A stretch of 35,092 bases of DNA from Candidatus Rokuibacteriota bacterium (GTDB lineage Bacteria > Methylomirabilota > Methylomirabilia > Rokubacteriales > CSP1-6): the NCBI GenBank assembly GCA_016866775.1, contig VGLJ01000052.1, positions 1-35,092 on the forward strand. The letters run 5' to 3'. Within the stretch, counting starts at the first letter, position 1, and each line of letters begins with the position of its first letter. A program made the translations under genes and the position numbers. Shown here in pieces: positions 15,348 to 23,387 of this stretch. Below the pieces are notes generated by a model, which searched no databases, was not told the DNA's origin, and was given only the letters and a program-made list of their open reading frames with translations.

Positions 15348-16121
15348 TCACTCTCCAGTGAACCACGCCGGGCGCTTTTCGAGAAACGCGTCCAGGCCTT
15401 CCGCCGCGTCGCGCGTGGCGATGACCTCGAAGACGGCCTGGCGCTCGACCTCGAGGCCTTCCGCGAGCGGACGGCCCCATCCGCCGTAAATGCACCGCTT
15501 GAGCAAGCCGATCGCCCGTGTCGGCTTTGCGGCGAGCTCGCGCGCGAATTCGCCGACCTGAGCGGCGAGTGTGTCAGCGGGCAGCACGCGCTGTACGAGC
15601 CCCAGGTCCAGCGCGTCTGTCGCGCTCATGCGGCGGCCCGAGACCATCAGGTCGAGCGCGCGCGCGGGCCCGAGGAGGCGTGTGAGGCGCTGGGTGCCGC
15701 CCGCACCGGGGAAGATGCCGAGCCCGATCTCGGGGAAGCCGATCGACGCATCCGCCGCCATCCATCGGAAGTCGCACGCGAGCGCGAGCTCGGCGCCGCC
15801 ACCGAACGCGTAGCCGTTGATCGCCGCGATCACCGGCTGCGTGAGCGCTTCGAGACCCGCCTGCACGTCGATCCAGCGCCGCACGCGCTCGTGGTTCGCG
15901 CGCGAGACGTCGCGCATCATCGCGATGTCGGCGCCGGCGCAGAACGCGCGGCCGGATCCGGTGACGACGACCGCGCGCACGCGCGCGTCCGCCCCGAGCG
16001 CGGCGACGACGGCGAGGAAGTCGTCGATCACCTCGAGGTTCACCGCGTTCACCGGCGGACGGTCGAGCGTGACGGTCGCGACGGCCCCGGCGATCTCCAG
16101 GCGGACGTGGCGCAGGCTCAC
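15348..16121 (-). CDS. Enoyl-CoA hydratase/isomerase (crotonase family)
   Basis: A 257-residue crotonase-fold enzyme. The oxyanion-hole region is AFCAGADIAMM, and the two catalytic glutamates of hydratases are both present, in GGGAELALACD and in FPEIGLGIFPGAGGTQRL. It would add water to a 2-enoyl-CoA. The start is the GTG at 16119-16121, which overlaps the CoA-transferase stop as GTGA and has AAGGAG upstream; the frame stays open further up but only antisense to the upstream gene. It is the last gene of the long minus-strand unit and would act after CoA activation by its neighbour. Confidence 0.92.
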   Translation of the reverse strand: MSLRHVRLEIAGAVATVTLDRPPVNAVNLEVIDDFLAVVAALGADARVRAVVVTGSGRAFCAGADIAMMRDVSRANHERVRRWIDVQAGLEALTQPVIAAINGYAFGGGAELALACDFRWMAADASIGFPEIGLGIFPGAGGTQRLTRLLGPARALDLMVSGRRMSATDALDLGLVQRVLPADTLAAQVGEFARELAAKPTRAIGLLKRCIYGGWGRPLAEGLEVERQAVFEVIATRDAAEGLDAFLEKRPAWFTGE

Positions 16122-18469
16122 TCGAGCACTCCTTCCTTCTCGTGACGGGTGATCTCGGCCTCGTCGAGGCCGAGGAGCTCGCCGAGGATCGCGCGCGTGT
16201 GCTGGCCGAGCGTCGGCGCCGGGTGCCACACGCGGCCGGGCGTCCCGGCGAGTCGCGCGACGACGCCTTCGTGTGGAAACGCGCCGATGACCGGGTGCTC
16301 GACGGTCTCCCAGTAGCCGCGGGCCCGGAGATGCGGATCGCCGTCGACGAGATCGCGCGCGTCCTGCACGGCGCCGGCGGCGACGCCGCGGGCCTGCAGC
16401 GCCTCCATCAGCGCGTGCGCGTCGCGCTCGCGCGTCCACGCTTCCACGGCGTCGTCGATCGCATCCTCGTGCGCCTTGCGTCCGCCCGCCGTGGCGAGCC
16501 GCGGGTCCGCGGCGAGGTCGGCGCGGCCGATCGCGGCGCACAGCGCGCGCCACGCGTCGTCACCCGTCACGGCGATCGCGATCCATCGGTCGTCGCCGCG
16601 GCAGCGGAACACGCCGTGAGGCGCCATCGTCGGATGGCGATTGCCGCGCGGTTCTCGGGCGCCGCCGGCCGCGGCCTCGAGCAGGCTCGTGCCGGTGTGC
16701 GCCGCCACCGCTTCGACCTGGGAGAGGTCGATGTGCTGCCCTTCACCGGTGGCCGCGCGATGCTCGAGCGCGGCGAGCGCCCCGAACGCCGCGTGCAGCC
16801 CGGCGATCATGTCGCCGAGCCCGAACGTGGTGCCCACGGGATCGCGTCCGGGGAAGCCGGCCTGCGCCGAGAGCCCCGAGAGCGCCGCGAGCGCGTCGGC
16901 GTACGTCAGGAAGTCGCGCCACGGGCCCGTGTGGCCGAGGCCCGACATGGAGACCAGGATGATGTCGCGACGGATCGCGCGCAGCCCCGCGTAGTCGAGC
17001 CCCCAGCCGGCCATCACGCGGGGACTGAAGTTCTCGATGACCACGTCCGAGTGCGCGGCGAGCCGCGCGAGAAGGTCGCGCCCCGCCGGCAGGTTGAGAT
17101 TGAGCGCGACGCTGCGCTTGTTGCGGTTGTGATTGTTGAAGTAGCCGTTGCGGTCGTGGTGGAAGTCGCCACGCGAGAGGAACAGCATGCGCGCGAAGCG
17201 CGTCGGGTCCGGGCGGTGACGCGACTCGATCTTGATCACGTCCGCGCCGTGGTCCGCGAGCAGCCGCGCCGCGTACGGTCCGGCGAGCACCCACGTCAGA
17301 TCGAGGACCCGAACTCCGGCGAGCGCGCCGCGCGCGGCCGGCGCGGACCGTGTCACACGCGCCGTCGACTGGGCGTCATGCCCCGCGAGCATCGTCGTGT
17401 TGCCTTCGCCGGCGGCCGGCACGACGAGCCGAGGGGGCCGGTGACCGTTCGGGAATCCGAAGGCGAAGCCGCCGTCGCGAAGCACGCGGCCGTCGAGCAC
17501 GGTCTCGACGAAGAAGCCGCGCGCCGCGAGGTGCGGATTCGCGGCGACGTCGGCCGGCCGCTCGACGGACGCCCACGGCAGACGCCGGCGCTGCGCCTGC
17601 TGGAAGAAGTCGGCCTTCGCGAGCCCGCGCGTGAACGCCTCGATGACCTCGAAGACGTGCGCGCGCTCGGCGAGGCGCACCTTCTCGTCGAGCCAGCGCG
17701 GCTCGACGAGGTCGACGGCCGCGCCGCGCTCGCGCATCCAGTTGACGAGGTCGCCCCACATGCGCGGGTTGCCCCCGAGGCCGCCGGCGACGAGGCCGTC
17801 ACGCGCGCGGAAGAAGCTGTGCGGCACGTAGGGATGCCAGCTGCCGCTCCGTCGCGGAATCACGCCGGCGTGGACGTACGCGATCGCGCCGTACTCGAGC
17901 GTCGCGGCCACGGCGTCCTGGATCGAGACGTCGATGTGCTGTCCGCGGCCGGTGCGCCGGCGCGCGTGCCGCGCGGCGAGTGCCCCGACGGCCGCGTGCG
18001 CGCACGCGACGTGATACGACTGCTCGCACGGCGGCGCCAGCGGCGGCCCGTCGGCATCGCCGCAGAGCCGCATCATCCCGCCCATCGCCGCCGCGGTGAG
18101 ATTCGTCCCCTGCCACTCGGCCCGCGGTCCCGTGCGACCGAACGGCGTGATCGAGACGTGGATGAGCCCCGGCCGGAGCGCCGCCGTCGCGGGGGGATCG
18201 AGGCCGAGCGTCGCGAGCTCGCTCGAAGAGAGCGTCTCGACGAGAACGTCCGCCGTGGCGACGAGAGCGCGGAGACGTTCGCGGTCCCGCGCCACCGTGA
18301 GATCGAGCGTCACCGAGCGTGCGCCTGCGCGGAAGTGCGCGAACGCGAGCCCGGCGCGCGCCGGATCGCCCCCGGGCGGCTCGACGACGATGACCTCCGC
18401 ACCCAGCCCGATCATGAGACGGCCGAAGAACGCGCCGGCATCGCCGGTGAGGTCGACGACGCGGATCAT
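16118..18469 (-). CDS. Two-domain CaiB/BaiF family (class III) CoA transferase
   Basis: A 783-residue protein containing two full class III CoA-transferase halves. The first (about 1-375) starts MIRVVDLTGDAGAFFGRL and has RRTGRGQHIDVSIQDAV, with Asp near residue 184 at the place of the catalytic Asp of formyl-CoA transferase. The second (about 380-783) starts GVRVLDLTWVLAGPYAARLL and has GEGQHIDLSQVEAV, with Glu near residue 585 at that place. Class III enzymes move CoA between carboxylates through an aspartyl-CoA thioester, so the first half is the likelier active one. Most relatives are about 400 residues and dimerise; tandem versions exist, such as DddD. The ATG at 18467-18469 has only a weak AGGA site upstream. 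Confidence 0.9.
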   Translation of the reverse strand: MIRVVDLTGDAGAFFGRLMIGLGAEVIVVEPPGGDPARAGLAFAHFRAGARSVTLDLTVARDRERLRALVATADVLVETLSSSELATLGLDPPATAALRPGLIHVSITPFGRTGPRAEWQGTNLTAAAMGGMMRLCGDADGPPLAPPCEQSYHVACAHAAVGALAARHARRRTGRGQHIDVSIQDAVAATLEYGAIAYVHAGVIPRRSGSWHPYVPHSFFRARDGLVAGGLGGNPRMWGDLVNWMRERGAAVDLVEPRWLDEKVRLAERAHVFEVIEAFTRGLAKADFFQQAQRRRLPWASVERPADVAANPHLAARGFFVETVLDGRVLRDGGFAFGFPNGHRPPRLVVPAAGEGNTTMLAGHDAQSTARVTRSAPAARGALAGVRVLDLTWVLAGPYAARLLADHGADVIKIESRHRPDPTRFARMLFLSRGDFHHDRNGYFNNHNRNKRSVALNLNLPAGRDLLARLAAHSDVVIENFSPRVMAGWGLDYAGLRAIRRDIILVSMSGLGHTGPWRDFLTYADALAALSGLSAQAGFPGRDPVGTTFGLGDMIAGLHAAFGALAALEHRAATGEGQHIDLSQVEAVAAHTGTSLLEAAAGGAREPRGNRHPTMAPHGVFRCRGDDRWIAIAVTGDDAWRALCAAIGRADLAADPRLATAGGRKAHEDAIDDAVEAWTRERDAHALMEALQARGVAAGAVQDARDLVDGDPHLRARGYWETVEHPVIGAFPHEGVVARLAGTPGRVWHPAPTLGQHTRAILGELLGLDEAEITRHEKEGVLE

Positions 18470-18483
18470 ACGCGGCCGCGATC

Positions 18484-20805
18484 CTACCGCAGCAGCGCGA
18501 ACACGCGTGACGGCGTCAGCGGCACGCGGGTGACCACGACGCTGCGGTCCGCGAGCGCGTCCTCCACCGCGTTGCCGATCGCCGCGGCGCCCGCGATGAT
18601 GCCGCTCTCGCCCACCCCCTTGATCCCGAGCGGGTTGACCGTCGACGGAAAGTCGAGCGACGTCACGTCGAGCGGAGGGATCTGGTCCGCGCGCGGCGGA
18701 CAGTAGTCCATGAACGTCGCGGTGAGGAGCTGGCCCGCGTCGTCGTAGACGAGCTCCTCGTAGAGCGCGCTGCCGATGCCCTGCGCGATGCCGCCGTGGA
18801 GCTGGCCCTCGACGATCATCGGGTTGATCGGCCGGCCGCAATCGTGGACGGCCACGCAGCGCAGCAGCGTCACGACGCCGGTCTCGACGTCCACCTCGAC
18901 GACCACGCCCTGGCCGCCGAACGCCCACGTCACCGAGCCCGGATAGAAGAACGCACACGCGCTGAGACCGGGCGTGCCACCCGCCACGGCCGACGCGCGG
19001 CTTCGCAGCGCGGCACGCGCGACGCGCGCGAGCGGCAGACGGCGATCGGGCGCGCCGCGGACCTCCGCGTGCCCGGCGCGCAAGACGACGTCGTCGGCGG
19101 CGCACTCGAAGAGCTCCGCCGCCACGCGGCGCGCCTTGTCCGCGACCTCGTTCGTGGCCTGCGCCACCGCCGGTCCCGCCACGGCGGCGACACGGCTCGC
19201 GATCGTGCCCATGCCGTAGCCGACGAGCTGCGTGTCGCCGCCGGCGACCACCACGTCGTCGACCGTGACGCCGAGACGATCGGCGCAGATCTGCGCGAAG
19301 ACCGTCTCGTGACCCTGGCCCTGCTGCGAGACACCGAGGTACACGAACACCGTGCCGTTGGGATCGACGCGCACGTCGGCGCCCTCGAACGGTCCGAGGC
19401 CCGTGCCCTCGACGTACGCGGAGACGCCGATGCCGATGGGCCGGCTGGTGCCGCGCCGCGCGTGCTGCTCCTTGCGCCAGGCCGAATAGTCGAGCCGCTC
19501 GATCATCCGGTCGAACGCCGCGACGTAATCCGCCGGGTCGTAGCTGATCGGCACGCCGTCGCGATAGCTCAAGCCCGATGCGTACGGCATCTCCGCGGCC
19601 GTGACGAGATTCCGCCGGCGCAGCTCCACGGGATCGACGCCGCTCGCGCGCGCGGCGCGGTCGAGCAGGCGATCGAGGACGAACGCCGCCTCGGGACGGC
19701 CGGCGCCGCGATACGCGGCGAGGAACGTCTTGTGCGTGACCACGTTGTCCGCCGTCGCCTTGTAGGCGGGCACGCGGTACGGCCCGGGCAGGTGGTTGAT
19801 CGTGTTGAGCGTGATCGCCTCGCCGAGCGTCGGGAACGCGCCGTGATCGCGCGTGAACCGGGTCTCGATCGCGGTGATCGTCCCGTCGCGGGCGACGCCG
19901 ATGCGCGCATCGTGCTCCTGATCGCGATCCGCCGCGGCGGTGAGGAGGTGCTCGGTGCGCGTCTCCACCCACTTCACCGCGCGGCGGAGATGTCGCGCGA
20001 CCGCCGGGATCAGCACGTCCTCCGGATAGACGTGGCCCTTCACCCCGAATCCGCCGCCGACGTCGGGCACGATCACCCGCACGCGCTCTTCCGGCACGCC
20101 CAGAATCCCCGCGACGGCCGCGCGCACGCCGAACGGCACCTGCGTCGAGGTCCACACGGTGAGCCCGTCGCCCGTCTCGGGCCGCGCCACGACGCCGCGC
20201 GGCTCGATCGGCGTGCCGGACACGCGCGGATACGCGACGCGCACGCGCTCGACGATGTCCGCGCTCGCGAAGCCTCGACCGACGTCGCCGACGGCACTGG
20301 TCGTCGTCGCGAAGAGGTTGTCGGGCCAGTCCGGCTGCACGATCGGGCCGCCGACCGCGGTGGCGACGCGCGTGGCCGCGGGCCGTGGCGAGTAGTCCAC
20401 CGTGACCGCGGCGGCGCCGTCGGCCGCGCGGTACGGATCGGTCGCGACCACCACCGCGACCGCCTCGCCGACGTGCCGCACACGGTCGGCGGCGAGGACC
20501 GGATGCGCGTACGGACGCCGCTTCGGCTCGGGGACGAGCGCCGGAATCGATCCGCCCAGCGCGGGCAGCTCACGGCGCGTGAGCGCGGCGACGACGCCCT
20601 CGAGCGCGAGCGCCGCGCGCGCATCGATCCGCGTGACGTCGGCGTGGGCGTGTGGGCTGCGGACGATCACGACGTGCAGCAGATCGGGCAGCCGCAGGTC
20701 GTCGAGATAGCGGCCGCGGCCCGCGACGAGGCGCGCGTCCTCCTTGCGCTTGACGGATGTGCCGGCGAACGGGCCAGTCGGCACTCGCGGAGGGCCGGGA
20801 TTCAC
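18484..20805 (-). CDS. Molybdenum hydroxylase large subunit (xanthine dehydrogenase/aldehyde oxidase family)
   Basis: A 773-residue Mo-binding subunit. The N-terminal GTSVKRKEDARLVAGRGRYLDD begins the family homology; PDVGGGFGVKGHVYPED, AAYRGAGRPEAAFVLDR, GVSQQGQGHETVFAQI and the catalytic glutamate in IKGVGESGI (about residue 730) follow. The active-site loop is AYRGAGR rather than the AYRCSFR of true CO dehydrogenase, so this is a hydroxylase of a heterocycle, aldehyde or acid. The start is uncertain: GTG at 20803-20805 overlaps the cupin stop as GTGA, and GTG at 20782-20784 is the alternative. Partner FAD and 2Fe-2S subunits are not in the window. Confidence 0.9.
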   Translation of the reverse strand: MNPGPPRVPTGPFAGTSVKRKEDARLVAGRGRYLDDLRLPDLLHVVIVRSPHAHADVTRIDARAALALEGVVAALTRRELPALGGSIPALVPEPKRRPYAHPVLAADRVRHVGEAVAVVVATDPYRAADGAAAVTVDYSPRPAATRVATAVGGPIVQPDWPDNLFATTTSAVGDVGRGFASADIVERVRVAYPRVSGTPIEPRGVVARPETGDGLTVWTSTQVPFGVRAAVAGILGVPEERVRVIVPDVGGGFGVKGHVYPEDVLIPAVARHLRRAVKWVETRTEHLLTAAADRDQEHDARIGVARDGTITAIETRFTRDHGAFPTLGEAITLNTINHLPGPYRVPAYKATADNVVTHKTFLAAYRGAGRPEAAFVLDRLLDRAARASGVDPVELRRRNLVTAAEMPYASGLSYRDGVPISYDPADYVAAFDRMIERLDYSAWRKEQHARRGTSRPIGIGVSAYVEGTGLGPFEGADVRVDPNGTVFVYLGVSQQGQGHETVFAQICADRLGVTVDDVVVAGGDTQLVGYGMGTIASRVAAVAGPAVAQATNEVADKARRVAAELFECAADDVVLRAGHAEVRGAPDRRLPLARVARAALRSRASAVAGGTPGLSACAFFYPGSVTWAFGGQGVVVEVDVETGVVTLLRCVAVHDCGRPINPMIVEGQLHGGIAQGIGSALYEELVYDDAGQLLTATFMDYCPPRADQIPPLDVTSLDFPSTVNPLGIKGVGESGIIAGAAAIGNAVEDALADRSVVVTRVPLTPSRVFALLR

Positions 20806-20814
20806 TCCCGGCCC
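20792..20814 (-). promoter_or_regulatory. Perfect 9-bp hairpin with the stop/start overlap in its loop
   Basis: The minus strand reads GGGCCGGGA-GTGAA-TCCCGGCCC. The five-base loop contains GTGA, which is both the cupin stop (TGA, 20802-20804) and the best candidate start of the Mo hydroxylase (GTG, 20803-20805). The stem could limit re-initiation, or act as a processing or attenuation site. It may alternatively belong to a set of GC-rich intergenic hairpins also seen near 15.0 and 23.4 kb. Confidence 0.5.
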
Positions 20815-21377
20815 GGAGCGCGGGGGGCGAGGGGTTTGGGGTCCTCCAGTGGCGAGGCCCCATGTTCGGAGGCGGTGCGCCTCGCGCCCCCCATGTCCTT
20901 CAGGTGCTCGTCGCGGCGGCGGGCGAGGTCCTCGTCGACGTAGCCCATGAGCTGGGGCTTCGAGGCGCCGAGCATCACTTGCAGGTACGCCGGCTCGAGG
21001 CCGACGTTCTCGTAGCCGTGGATGACGTTCGCGGGGCACGAGACGCAGTCCCACGGCCCGAGCACGGCCTCGACACGCGTGCCCGCCTCATCCTGGAAGA
21101 AGACCTTCACCTTGCCCTGGAGGATGAAGAAGACTTCCTCGACCTCGTGCGTGTGCGCGGCGTTCCCCTGGCCGGGCGGCACGAACATGATGCTGAGCGT
21201 GAAGTGCTCGGCGGGGATGAAGTCGGTGCGGTCGTGCTTGCCCGACCCGCCCGCGCCGATGAAGCGGTGCTGCGCGCGGCGATAGCCGTCGACGCGCGCG
21301 TCGGCGAACGCATCCCAGTCGGCCTTCCGGTCGATGAAGCGCGCGACCTGCCGCGTGAGGAGCTCGTCGATGTTCAT
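20802..21377 (-). CDS. Cupin-domain protein
   Basis: A 191-residue single-cupin protein. The metal-binding motif is PPGQGNAAHTHEVEEVFFIL, with two His and a Glu, and the second motif DCVSCPANVIHGYENVG supplies the last His, so a divalent metal site is complete. The last 30 or so residues, after HLKDMGGA, are Pro-rich and look like read-through into GC-rich repeat sequence rather than fold. The ATG at 21375-21377 overlaps the upstream stop as ATGA. The function (dioxygenase, isomerase or sensor) cannot be assigned; its place in the operon suggests a role in the same catabolic route. Confidence 0.85.
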   Translation of the reverse strand: MNIDELLTRQVARFIDRKADWDAFADARVDGYRRAQHRFIGAGGSGKHDRTDFIPAEHFTLSIMFVPPGQGNAAHTHEVEEVFFILQGKVKVFFQDEAGTRVEAVLGPWDCVSCPANVIHGYENVGLEPAYLQVMLGASKPQLMGYVDEDLARRRDEHLKDMGGARRTASEHGASPLEDPKPLAPRAPGRE

Positions 21378-22936
21378 GGCGTTGCGGGAGGCGGCAGCAC
21401 GCGCACCGCGTCGCCCGTCTTCACCACGCCCGGCGCGAGCACGCGCGCGTAGACGCGGCTCCATCCCGCGTGACGCTTCTGCGAGATCCGCGCGTAGTTG
21501 CCCCCGGCGAACGCGCTCCTGATGTTCACGCACGGCGAGGTGTACCGGGTGACCTCGAGCGCGACGTCGTCGCCGAGCAGGATGCGGGCGTTCGGTTGCA
21601 CGGCGTCCCAGTCGATGCCTTCGACCGTGAGGTTCTCGCCGGCCGAGCCGGGAACGATCGCGTGGCCTTCGCCCTGCAGATCGCGGATCCGCTCCATCGA
21701 GAAGAGGCACACCGCGCGCTCGGGACCGCCGTGGTGCTCGAGATCCCGCTGGCGATCGCCGTCCACGCCGTGTTCGGTGATGCGGGCGCTCGGGACGGCC
21801 GTCTTCGGCACGCCGCCGTTCGATACGCTGATCTGGACGATCCGACCCTTGTCCACAGGCTGACCTCCGGCTGGTTCGACGGGTCGAGTGTACGCCACGC
21901 CGGACCTCGTGCGGGTCGTCGCGCGGCTCGCCGGCCGGGAAGCGGCCTCGACGCGGAGCTCGCGCCCGACGCCGCGCGCCTTCGCCGTCGTGTACGCCAG
22001 GCGCGCGGCGACGAGGTCCTCGAGCGCGTAGCCCTCGGACTTGAAGACCGTGATCTCGTCGGCGCGCGTGCGGCCTGCGACCCTGCCGCTCGCCACGTCG
22101 GCGAGCGTTCCCACCACGTGGCTCCGCTGAATCACGCCCTCGATGATCGGGATCGCGATGTCGCCGGCGTTGTCGACGGTCGCCGGCTGATCGATCACGA
22201 CGCGGGCGCGGCGGATCGTCTCGCTGTCGAGCTCGCGCGCCGTCGGCTGAAAGGTTCCGACGCCGTCGACGTGCACGCCGGGCCTGAGCCGGCCGCCGTC
22301 GAACAGCGGCGTCGTCGCGGTCGTCGCGCAGGTGATGACGTCGGCCCGCGCCACCGCGTCGTCCCGGTCGTTCGTCACCGTGACGGGCAGGCCGAGTCGT
22401 TCGCTCCACGTCGCGGCGAAGCGGCGCGCGCGCTCGGGGTCGCGGCCGACGACCTCGACGCGCACGATCGGCGGCTCGGCGGCGAGGCACACGAGCTGGA
22501 AGCTCGCCTGCACGCCGGCGCCGAAGCACAGCAGCGTCTTCGCGTCGCGACGCGCGAGAGCGCGCGCCGCCACCGCGGACGTCGCACCGGTGCGAAGGCC
22601 GGTGAGATACCCGGCGTCCATGACCGCGAGCGGCGCGCCCGTGCGCCCATCCATGAGGACGTAGGTCCCGTGGACCGTCGGCACGCCGCGTGCCCGGTTG
22701 CCCGCGTAGAACGAGACGAGCTTGACGCCGAGCGCGACGCCGTCGCTCGGCGTCGCACCGGCGGGGGCGACCGCCGGCATGAGGAGGAGCACGCCGTCGT
22801 CGGTGACGGGCACGGTCGCGCGCGGCGGCACCCGCGAGGCGCCGGTCGCGTGCTCGGCGAACGCGCGCGCGAGCGCGTCGATCAGCGCGCGCGGCTCGAG
22901 GACCGCCTCGACGTCGGCGCGACCGAGAACCAGCAC
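21374..22936 (-). CDS. Ornithine cyclodeaminase/mu-crystallin family protein fused to a MOSC domain
   Basis: One open frame of 520 codons. Residues 1 to about 325 match the ornithine cyclodeaminase/mu-crystallin family: GVKLVSFYAGN near residue 70, TGLRTGATSAVAARALAR, the NAD(P)-binding GAGVQASFQL, and FKSEGYALEDLVAARLAY near the end. Relatives normally stop at about this point. After a 35-residue Pro/Arg/Thr linker, residues 361-520 form a MOSC domain (IVQISVSNGGVPKTAV, GPERAVCLFS, GSAGENLTVEGIDW, RYTSPCVNI with the conserved Cys). The start is GTG at 22934-22936, right after the upstream TAG; the end is an ATGA overlap with the cupin. It may make one fused protein, two proteins, or both, because the MOSC part has its own ribosome site. 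Confidence 0.85.
   Translation of the reverse strand: MLVLGRADVEAVLEPRALIDALARAFAEHATGASRVPPRATVPVTDDGVLLLMPAVAPAGATPSDGVALGVKLVSFYAGNRARGVPTVHGTYVLMDGRTGAPLAVMDAGYLTGLRTGATSAVAARALARRDAKTLLCFGAGVQASFQLVCLAAEPPIVRVEVVGRDPERARRFAATWSERLGLPVTVTNDRDDAVARADVITCATTATTPLFDGGRLRPGVHVDGVGTFQPTARELDSETIRRARVVIDQPATVDNAGDIAIPIIEGVIQRSHVVGTLADVASGRVAGRTRADEITVFKSEGYALEDLVAARLAYTTAKARGVGRELRVEAASRPASRATTRTRSGVAYTRPVEPAGGQPVDKGRIVQISVSNGGVPKTAVPSARITEHGVDGDRQRDLEHHGGPERAVCLFSMERIRDLQGEGHAIVPGSAGENLTVEGIDWDAVQPNARILLGDDVALEVTRYTSPCVNIRSAFAGGNYARISQKRHAGWSRVYARVLAPGVVKTGDAVRVLPPPATP
21854..21868 (-). promoter_or_regulatory. Internal ribosome site and GTG start for a separate MOSC protein
   Basis: On the minus strand GGAGGT (21863-21868) is followed after six bases by GTG (21854-21856), in frame with the MOSC domain and placed exactly where a stand-alone MOSC protein would begin (160 residues, VDKGRIVQISV). 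This suggests the two domains were separate genes and that the cyclodeaminase has lost its stop codon. Confidence 0.6.
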
Positions 22937-22937
22937 C

Positions 22938-23387
22938 CTAGGACGGCTTGCGCCGGATCATCCGCTGGAGCTTCAGCTCCATCACGGTCTCGCCGCGCTG
23001 GTTGAAGACGCGGTGCTTGTACGTGACGATGCCGCGGTCCGGCTTCTTCGTCTCCCGCTTGTCGACGATCTCGACCTCCACGCGGATCGTGTCGCCGGCG
23101 AGCACGGGCGCCACCACCTTCACCTCGCCGCCGAGCCACGCCATCGCCACACCGTGGATGAGCCCGGTCTGGATGACGAGGCCCTCGGAAAGCGCGAACG
23201 TCAGCGTGCCCGGCGCCGCGCGGCCGCCGAAGACCGATTCCTTCTTCACGTACTCCATGTCCATGAAGAGCGGCTCGATCAGCCCCGCCGTGTTCACGAA
23301 GTTCACGATGTCGGTCTCGGAGACCGTGCGTCCGAGCGTCTGGTACGTGGCGCCGATCTTGTGGTCGTCCCAGGTCAGCCCCTGCAT
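22938..23387 (-). CDS. MaoC-like dehydratase (hot-dog fold)
   Basis: A 149-residue protein with the MaoC/(R)-hydratase layout: VSETDIVNFVNTAG near residue 22, then the long hot-dog helix GTLTFALSEGLVIQTGLIHG, and GGEVKVVAPVLAGDTIRVEVEI. These proteins act on acyl-CoA or acyl carrier substrates, often hydrating enoyl-CoA. The typical catalytic D-x(4)-H is not clear here, so the exact activity is open. AAAGGAG lies six bases before the ATG at 23385-23387. It follows livF after a hairpin and precedes the cyclodeaminase by one base, so it starts the enzyme part of the operon. Confidence 0.85.
   Translation of the reverse strand: MQGLTWDDHKIGATYQTLGRTVSETDIVNFVNTAGLIEPLFMDMEYVKKESVFGGRAAPGTLTFALSEGLVIQTGLIHGVAMAWLGGEVKVVAPVLAGDTIRVEVEIVDKRETKKPDRGIVTYKHRVFNQRGETVMELKLQRMIRRKPS

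Follow-up and report, generated by a model that had tools for sequence, protein, structure and literature searches.

An ornithine cyclodeaminase-family gene open in frame into a MOSC domain in a Candidatus Rokuibacteriota genome, with start signals retained before the MOSC part

The open reading frame and its surroundings

The window, i.e. the whole analysed stretch of 35,092 nucleotides, corresponds to contig C52 in a draft assembly of 159 contigs and 5.13 Mb, and its minus strand carries from 22936 to 21374 a single stop-free frame of 520 codons with a GTG start and a TGA stop (Table 1). Pfam assigns residues 3–320 to OCD_Mu_crystall (PF02423, here OCD) with an E-value of 1.7e-75 and 254.4 bits against a gathering score of 24, and residues 398–512 to MOSC (PF03473) with an E-value of 3.1e-20 and 72.8 bits with the whole ORF as query, or 75.4 bits with the MOSC part alone, above the gathering score of 22.7. 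No stop intervenes, and the frame is uninterrupted through both domains as the consensus sequence stands, which is what the initial annotation had described as a cyclodeaminase running in frame into a MOSC domain.

Table 1. Features of the OCD-MOSC locus (window coordinates).
Feature	Position	Strand	Remarks
MaoC-like gene	22938..23387	-	directly upstream; its TAG stop is one base from the OCD GTG; conserved neighbour
OCD/mu-crystallin-type imine reductase part	21950..22936	-	residues 1–329; Pfam, PDB sequence match, AlphaFold
TACACG	21989..21994	-	in OCD codons A-Y-T; site of TACAAT in 10/29 relatives
GAG codon	21947..21949	-	residue 330; at the stop position of 22/29 relatives' OCD genes
Joining segment	21857..21949	-	residues 330–360; 93 nt, 31 codons; non-coding composition
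TACACT, -10-like element	21887..21892	-	within the segment above; 30 nt upstream of the MOSC GTG
GGAGGT	21863..21868	-	Shine-Dalgarno (SD) site of MOSC
MOSC gene with own GTG start	21374..21856	-	160 aa; residues 361–520
Cupin gene	20802..21377	-	ATG overlaps the MOSC stop (ATGA)

The best solved sequence match to residues 1–327 is a delta1-pyrroline-2-carboxylate reductase (6t3e, E-value 2.3e-69), and the best NCBIfam model for the OCD part is PRK06141, the equivalog of the same reductase. The OCD part misses the cut-off of this model, with 278.6 against 322 bits; the reductase, and with it the substrate, is therefore only a putative assignment. Compared with that enzyme the ORF has an additional C-terminal MOSC domain, and family-conserved residues are altered at 230–301. 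The MOSC part resembles the YiiM-type proteins (PDB 5yhi, 5yhh and 1o65) in having a MOSC domain with an SPC cysteine: C469 aligns to the SPC of YiiM and is invariant across the 22 sequences of alignment A3, and PMC5818509 likewise describes a cysteine invariant in MOSC proteins. The similarity is weak (E-value 3.4e-10), the 160 residues of the window compare with 221–246 in the YiiM type, and the NCBIfam model for 6-hydroxyaminopurine reductase gives 43.8 bits, far under its cut-off of 294. With OCD homologues, AlphaFold predicts the structure with a pLDDT mostly above 80 to about residue 330, and with MOSC homologues the confidence goes up at about residue 361, which is the internal GTG. The joining segment has a low pLDDT in both models, in part by construction since no aligned homologue spans it. 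Alignments A2 and A3 were used, and an alignment combining the fusion with the two homologue sets (A1) was left out as it appeared mis-aligned.

Gene order was compared in 20 chosen regions, in 12 of which both OCD and MOSC were found. MaoC lies directly before OCD-MOSC in 11 of these 12, and ten of the 11 stand behind liv genes. Region L131 has some 3 kb between livF and MaoC, L129 is without MaoC, and in L137–L140 the OCD gene is missing and MOSC comes after MaoC. On the minus strand of the window, positions 18487–20799, two genes downstream of MOSC, encode a xanthine-dehydrogenase-type molybdopterin-binding protein, and a molybdenum link is conceivable. Positions 16121–18469 of the same strand hold a 783-residue frame with two tandem CoA-transferase family III domains.

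The joining segment and the OCD stop in relatives

The GC content of the joining segment by codon position is 0.71/0.81/0.74, as against 0.76/0.54/0.95 in the OCD part and 0.72/0.50/0.90 in the MOSC part. Read in the frame of the ORF it has a codon log-likelihood of -0.49 per codon (-0.66 and -0.25 in the alternative frames), while the reference values span 0.28 to 0.84 (5th–95th percentile of 85 in-frame 31-codon windows from eight neighbouring genes, the same genes on which the score was trained). The segment thus has the character of translated intergenic DNA, as had been noted from its composition. All three frames of the segment are without stops, and so is the somewhat longer interval 21970–21780. 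At this base composition (about 70% GC) a run of 31 stop-free codons in one frame has a chance of about 0.55, and the open linker is therefore unremarkable; the remarkable part is the absent OCD stop. Once a stop has been lost, the chance of reaching the next gene in frame is about 0.18.

The OCD ends could be read in 29 relatives, these being the loci returned (L004–L032), and all 29 have a stop, 27 of them TGA and two TAG. The initial annotation had suggested a stop-codon loss, which may be recent, to be checked in relatives near residues 325–335, and the missing stop is borne out: the stop aligns to the GAG codon of residue 330 in 22/29 and lies one codon later in the remaining seven, and in the window consensus it is absent. 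Among 195 searched relatives 119 gave some match, and in these as well as in 95 genomes of the phylum, two sets that overlap, the only match stop-free through both domains among those listed is that of the window itself. No genome of the same genus is among the matches listed for either set. With stops and separate genes in the relatives and only the window fused, the fusion seems to be a derived state and, among the genomes searched, peculiar to that of the window. A fusion shared by the family was rejected on the same ground, one genome of 95 having it among the matches listed.

In 13 relatives a MOSC start lies next to the OCD gene: ten whole genes, L019, L021 and L030. In ten of the 13 the OCD stop has a 4-nt overlap (GTGA) with a GTG in frame with MOSC, and two of these ten (L006 and L015) have besides it a second GTG slightly downstream; of the other three, L025 overlaps by 1 nt, and in L010 and L014 the MOSC start is downstream of the OCD stop. 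According to PMC10666635 an overlap of 4 nt is, along with one of 1 nt, the commonest among overlapping gene pairs, and coupling of such pairs by termination-reinitiation has been described for bacteria and archaea. Most of the relatives' OCD-MOSC pairs have the 4-nt overlap of such coupled pairs; the window differs from them in that both stop and overlap are gone and the frames are fused. Some of the relatives show peculiarities of their own. The MOSC of L019 has an inner gap, and in L021 (G038:C344) and L030 (G021:C28) MOSC is matched over the first 33 and 93 residues only, although the contigs continue, a possible sign of MOSC decay. In L014 (G012:C94) the OCD stop and the MOSC ATG lie about 139 nt apart, and the GC-rich sequence between them may be a small inserted repeat. 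L011 (G004:C29) has a relic of a MOSC start (TGRIVQLGV) just past the OCD stop and then another gene, presumably an FAD-dependent oxidoreductase by its motif. The MOSC alignment of L079 (G035:C246) contains an in-frame TGA, and this gene appears to end slightly early.

The main threat to the fusion is a single wrong consensus base. If there were such an error, or one of assembly, the living genome would have the OCD stop and the two genes would be separate as in the relatives. Among the genomes searched the fusion was seen in one, a draft in 159 contigs, and the sense codon stands exactly at the usual stop position, where one wrong base could suffice. A frameshift error is ruled out as the cause, since without a stop in any frame from 21970 to 21780 a single indel offers no explanation, and the conserved gene order argues against a chimeric contig. 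The segment before MOSC is moreover unlike the short overlap of the relatives and has the look of a relic, suggesting a junction that is truly rearranged, and we regard a sequencing or assembly error as unlikely.

Start signals of the MOSC part and their counterparts

The ribosome binding site and start codon that the initial annotation had assigned to the MOSC part are present: GGAGGT at 21868–21863 is followed after 6 nt by GTG at 21856–21854. Together they stand where the MOSC of separate homologues begins, and an SD-like site precedes the MOSC start in 22 of 32 relatives, indicating that MOSC has probably retained a start of its own. When the RNA around the start was folded, the window gave a z-score of -0.06, and among five sequences L009 alone stood out (-2.27). 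The -10-like TACACT is followed by GGAGGTCAGCCTGTG, which L014 and L016 likewise have where their OCD ends. MOSC perhaps keeps a promoter of its own as well, with TACACT as candidate -10 region. In 435 kb of the own genome, words of the class TAnA(A/C)T stand before an SD site and start in 11/56 cases, the window site counted, compared with 43/477 for other TANNNT words (p 0.019, the class having been picked after the table was seen). A plain count upstream of crude gene calls in the own genome did not pick out any -10 hexamer. The own genome has a single copy of the relatives' form CGCGTACAMTC and two of the reversed control, and the window's own -10-like site, which starts with a different base, does not match it.

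In the relatives a related word, GTACAAT, is found within 130 nt of the MOSC start in 16/32, namely in seven of 13 with an adjoining OCD gene and in nine of 19 without one. With an adjoining OCD it sits in the OCD codons A-Y-N, in all seven 38 nt from the MOSC start; without one the distance is 29–37 nt in seven of the nine, 93 in L087 and 7 in L103. The motif occurs in 8/13 OCD genes that have a MOSC start next to them (that of L014 farther off) and in 2/16 others (p 0.016), these two being L011, where a relic of the MOSC start remains, and L020. Counting the MOSC fragments L021 and L030 among the others instead changes the figures to 6/11 and 4/18 and raises p to 0.11, so the link between motif and MOSC is not robust to how these two are counted; since related genomes are not independent, the p-values of this comparison are only a guide. 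Codon choice at this place in OCD is biased. Asn is encoded there by AAT in 10/10 cases, whereas the rest of the 29 OCD genes have 6 AAT and 28 AAC (p 3e-6, with 29 of the 34 comparison codons belonging to one conserved site), and Asp codons lean likewise, with GAT in 7/11 at this place and in 102/486 elsewhere (p 0.003). This bias points to selection on the DNA, in which the motif would have a putative promoter role.

Stretches resembling the end of the OCD gene are also found where the gene itself is gone. The MOSC leader of L083, for example, can be aligned with the 3' end of the L021 OCD gene at a z-score of 14, and of ten leaders without OCD, picked from 19 such loci for carrying the motif or a near form, nine have a best z of at least 5.3 over 13 comparisons with base shuffles, and L090 has 3.8. 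The gap between MaoC and MOSC in L077, L082–L084, L086, L087, L089, L103 and L104 holds sequence similar to the final OCD codons; these leaders are non-coding, and have GTACAAT and often a GGAGG site.

The joining segment of the window, in its 3' part, resembles the OCD 3' ends and MOSC starts of L093, L095 and L098 (z 5.8, 4.9 and 4.5), all with an adjoining OCD and each with 0/300 base shuffles as good; among the 32 leaders no shuffle was as good only for these three and for L104, which is without OCD. We read the segment as a putative relic of an OCD 3' end. It may have arisen by a partial duplication, through a diverged copy taking the place of OCD, or by convergence of the sequence on signals for promoter and ribosome. 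A tandem duplication of the 3' end of the window's own OCD finds no support in direct similarity, with 75/500 shuffles as good (the query was off by two bases). A scan of genome contigs yielded 42 loci, in all of which the listed matched residues fall within the OCD part. A possible, if tentative, reading would join these observations: the OCD 3' end in this family would contain the promoter, SD site and start of MOSC and be kept as a relic when OCD is lost, and in the window a stop-less OCD, either with a duplicated end or itself a diverged replacement, would stand before such a relic, giving both the fusion and, from an embedded promoter derived from the OCD gene, a free MOSC.

Divergence of the OCD half and predicted products

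The OCD part of the window is altered in 12/101 near-invariant columns, compared with at most 5/97 in any other row, and ten of the 12 cluster at residues 230–301 (22034–22249, minus strand), among them the E before AGD. The MOSC part retains 49 of the 51 columns near-invariant in 28 relatives, a count that leaves out L079 with the stop in its alignment. The OCD branch of the window has a length of 0.64–0.76 compared with medians of 0.10–0.11, and the OCD identity is 6.7 points under the expectation from livF and MaoC over 13 comparisons, where the residual standard deviation of the other 78 pairs is 4.0. MaoC has diverged too, with a median identity of 73 against 83, and MOSC slightly, with 65 against 69. 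The OCD may have diverged under relaxed selection, through a functional shift, or because it was replaced. In the tree the window OCD stands on a long branch, and next to it 18 OCDs of the family form a group (fork 93/96). An origin from a distant donor finds no clear support, and keeping all the family rows together is not rejected (p-AU 0.30).

The long branch, the changed columns at 230–301 and the low identity could also mean that OCD is decaying or has changed its function and lost its stop along with that, the MOSC made from its own start being the product that matters. We consider this quite unlikely, as the OCD frame is intact with a strong coding signal (GC3 0.95), its fold is predicted with confidence, and the adjoining MaoC has diverged as well.

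The explanation we favour, with somewhat better than even confidence, is that the OCD stop is missing and a 520-residue fusion is made, that the internal signals probably give a free MOSC too, and that the fusion is near-neutral. Two genes of an operon, separate in the relatives, would be joined here by the absence of the OCD stop, and a ribosome translating OCD, meeting no stop before that of MOSC, would make the OCD-linker-MOSC protein, as the sequence requires provided that the consensus is correct. Because the SD site, the GTG and the -10-like element are kept, the free 160-residue MOSC is probably made too, by internal initiation on the long mRNA, from its own transcript, or both. The short stop/start overlap through which, in most relatives, translation of MOSC may be coupled to that of OCD is absent here. 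The initial annotation had envisaged a fusion and a free MOSC protein from one mRNA; two products from the locus are plausible given the retained SD site and GTG, but the restriction to a shared mRNA should be loosened, since with the -10-like element in the joining segment the free MOSC may also have its own transcript.

The fusion would on this explanation be a tolerated by-product and not an adapted bifunctional enzyme. An established enzyme, made and used as the fusion alone with the internal signals vestigial, would suit a frame that is open throughout, two domains predicted to fold, and a MOSC part with the catalytic cysteine and nearly all of its conserved columns. The linker without a coding signature, the presence of SD site, GTG and -10-like element, and an architecture found in no other genome among the matches listed make such an enzyme quite unlikely.

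The locus is a compact natural case of neighbouring genes becoming fused, in which syntenic relatives represent the unfused state with its stop/start overlap and the window a state where start signals outlive the loss of the stop. Whether a retained internal start, and perhaps a promoter, lets the cell tolerate a lost stop is testable here. It is also a warning for annotation, where the ORF would pass for an enzyme of two domains although the MOSC start probably remains in use. The case overturns no known pathway and is a modest curiosity of a single genome. In the literature searched, "ornithine cyclodeaminase" and "MOSC domain" were not found together in one paper, and by the listings on lost stops, gene fusion, and starts or promoters inside genes nothing was found on an OCD-MOSC case. 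Gene fusion of this kind is already known, and a C-terminal MOSC attached to another enzyme is likewise found in the MoaC-MOSC fusion (PRK14499), where the partner is MoaC instead of OCD; the match of this model to the window covers the MOSC part only, with 52.6 bits against a cut-off of 457.
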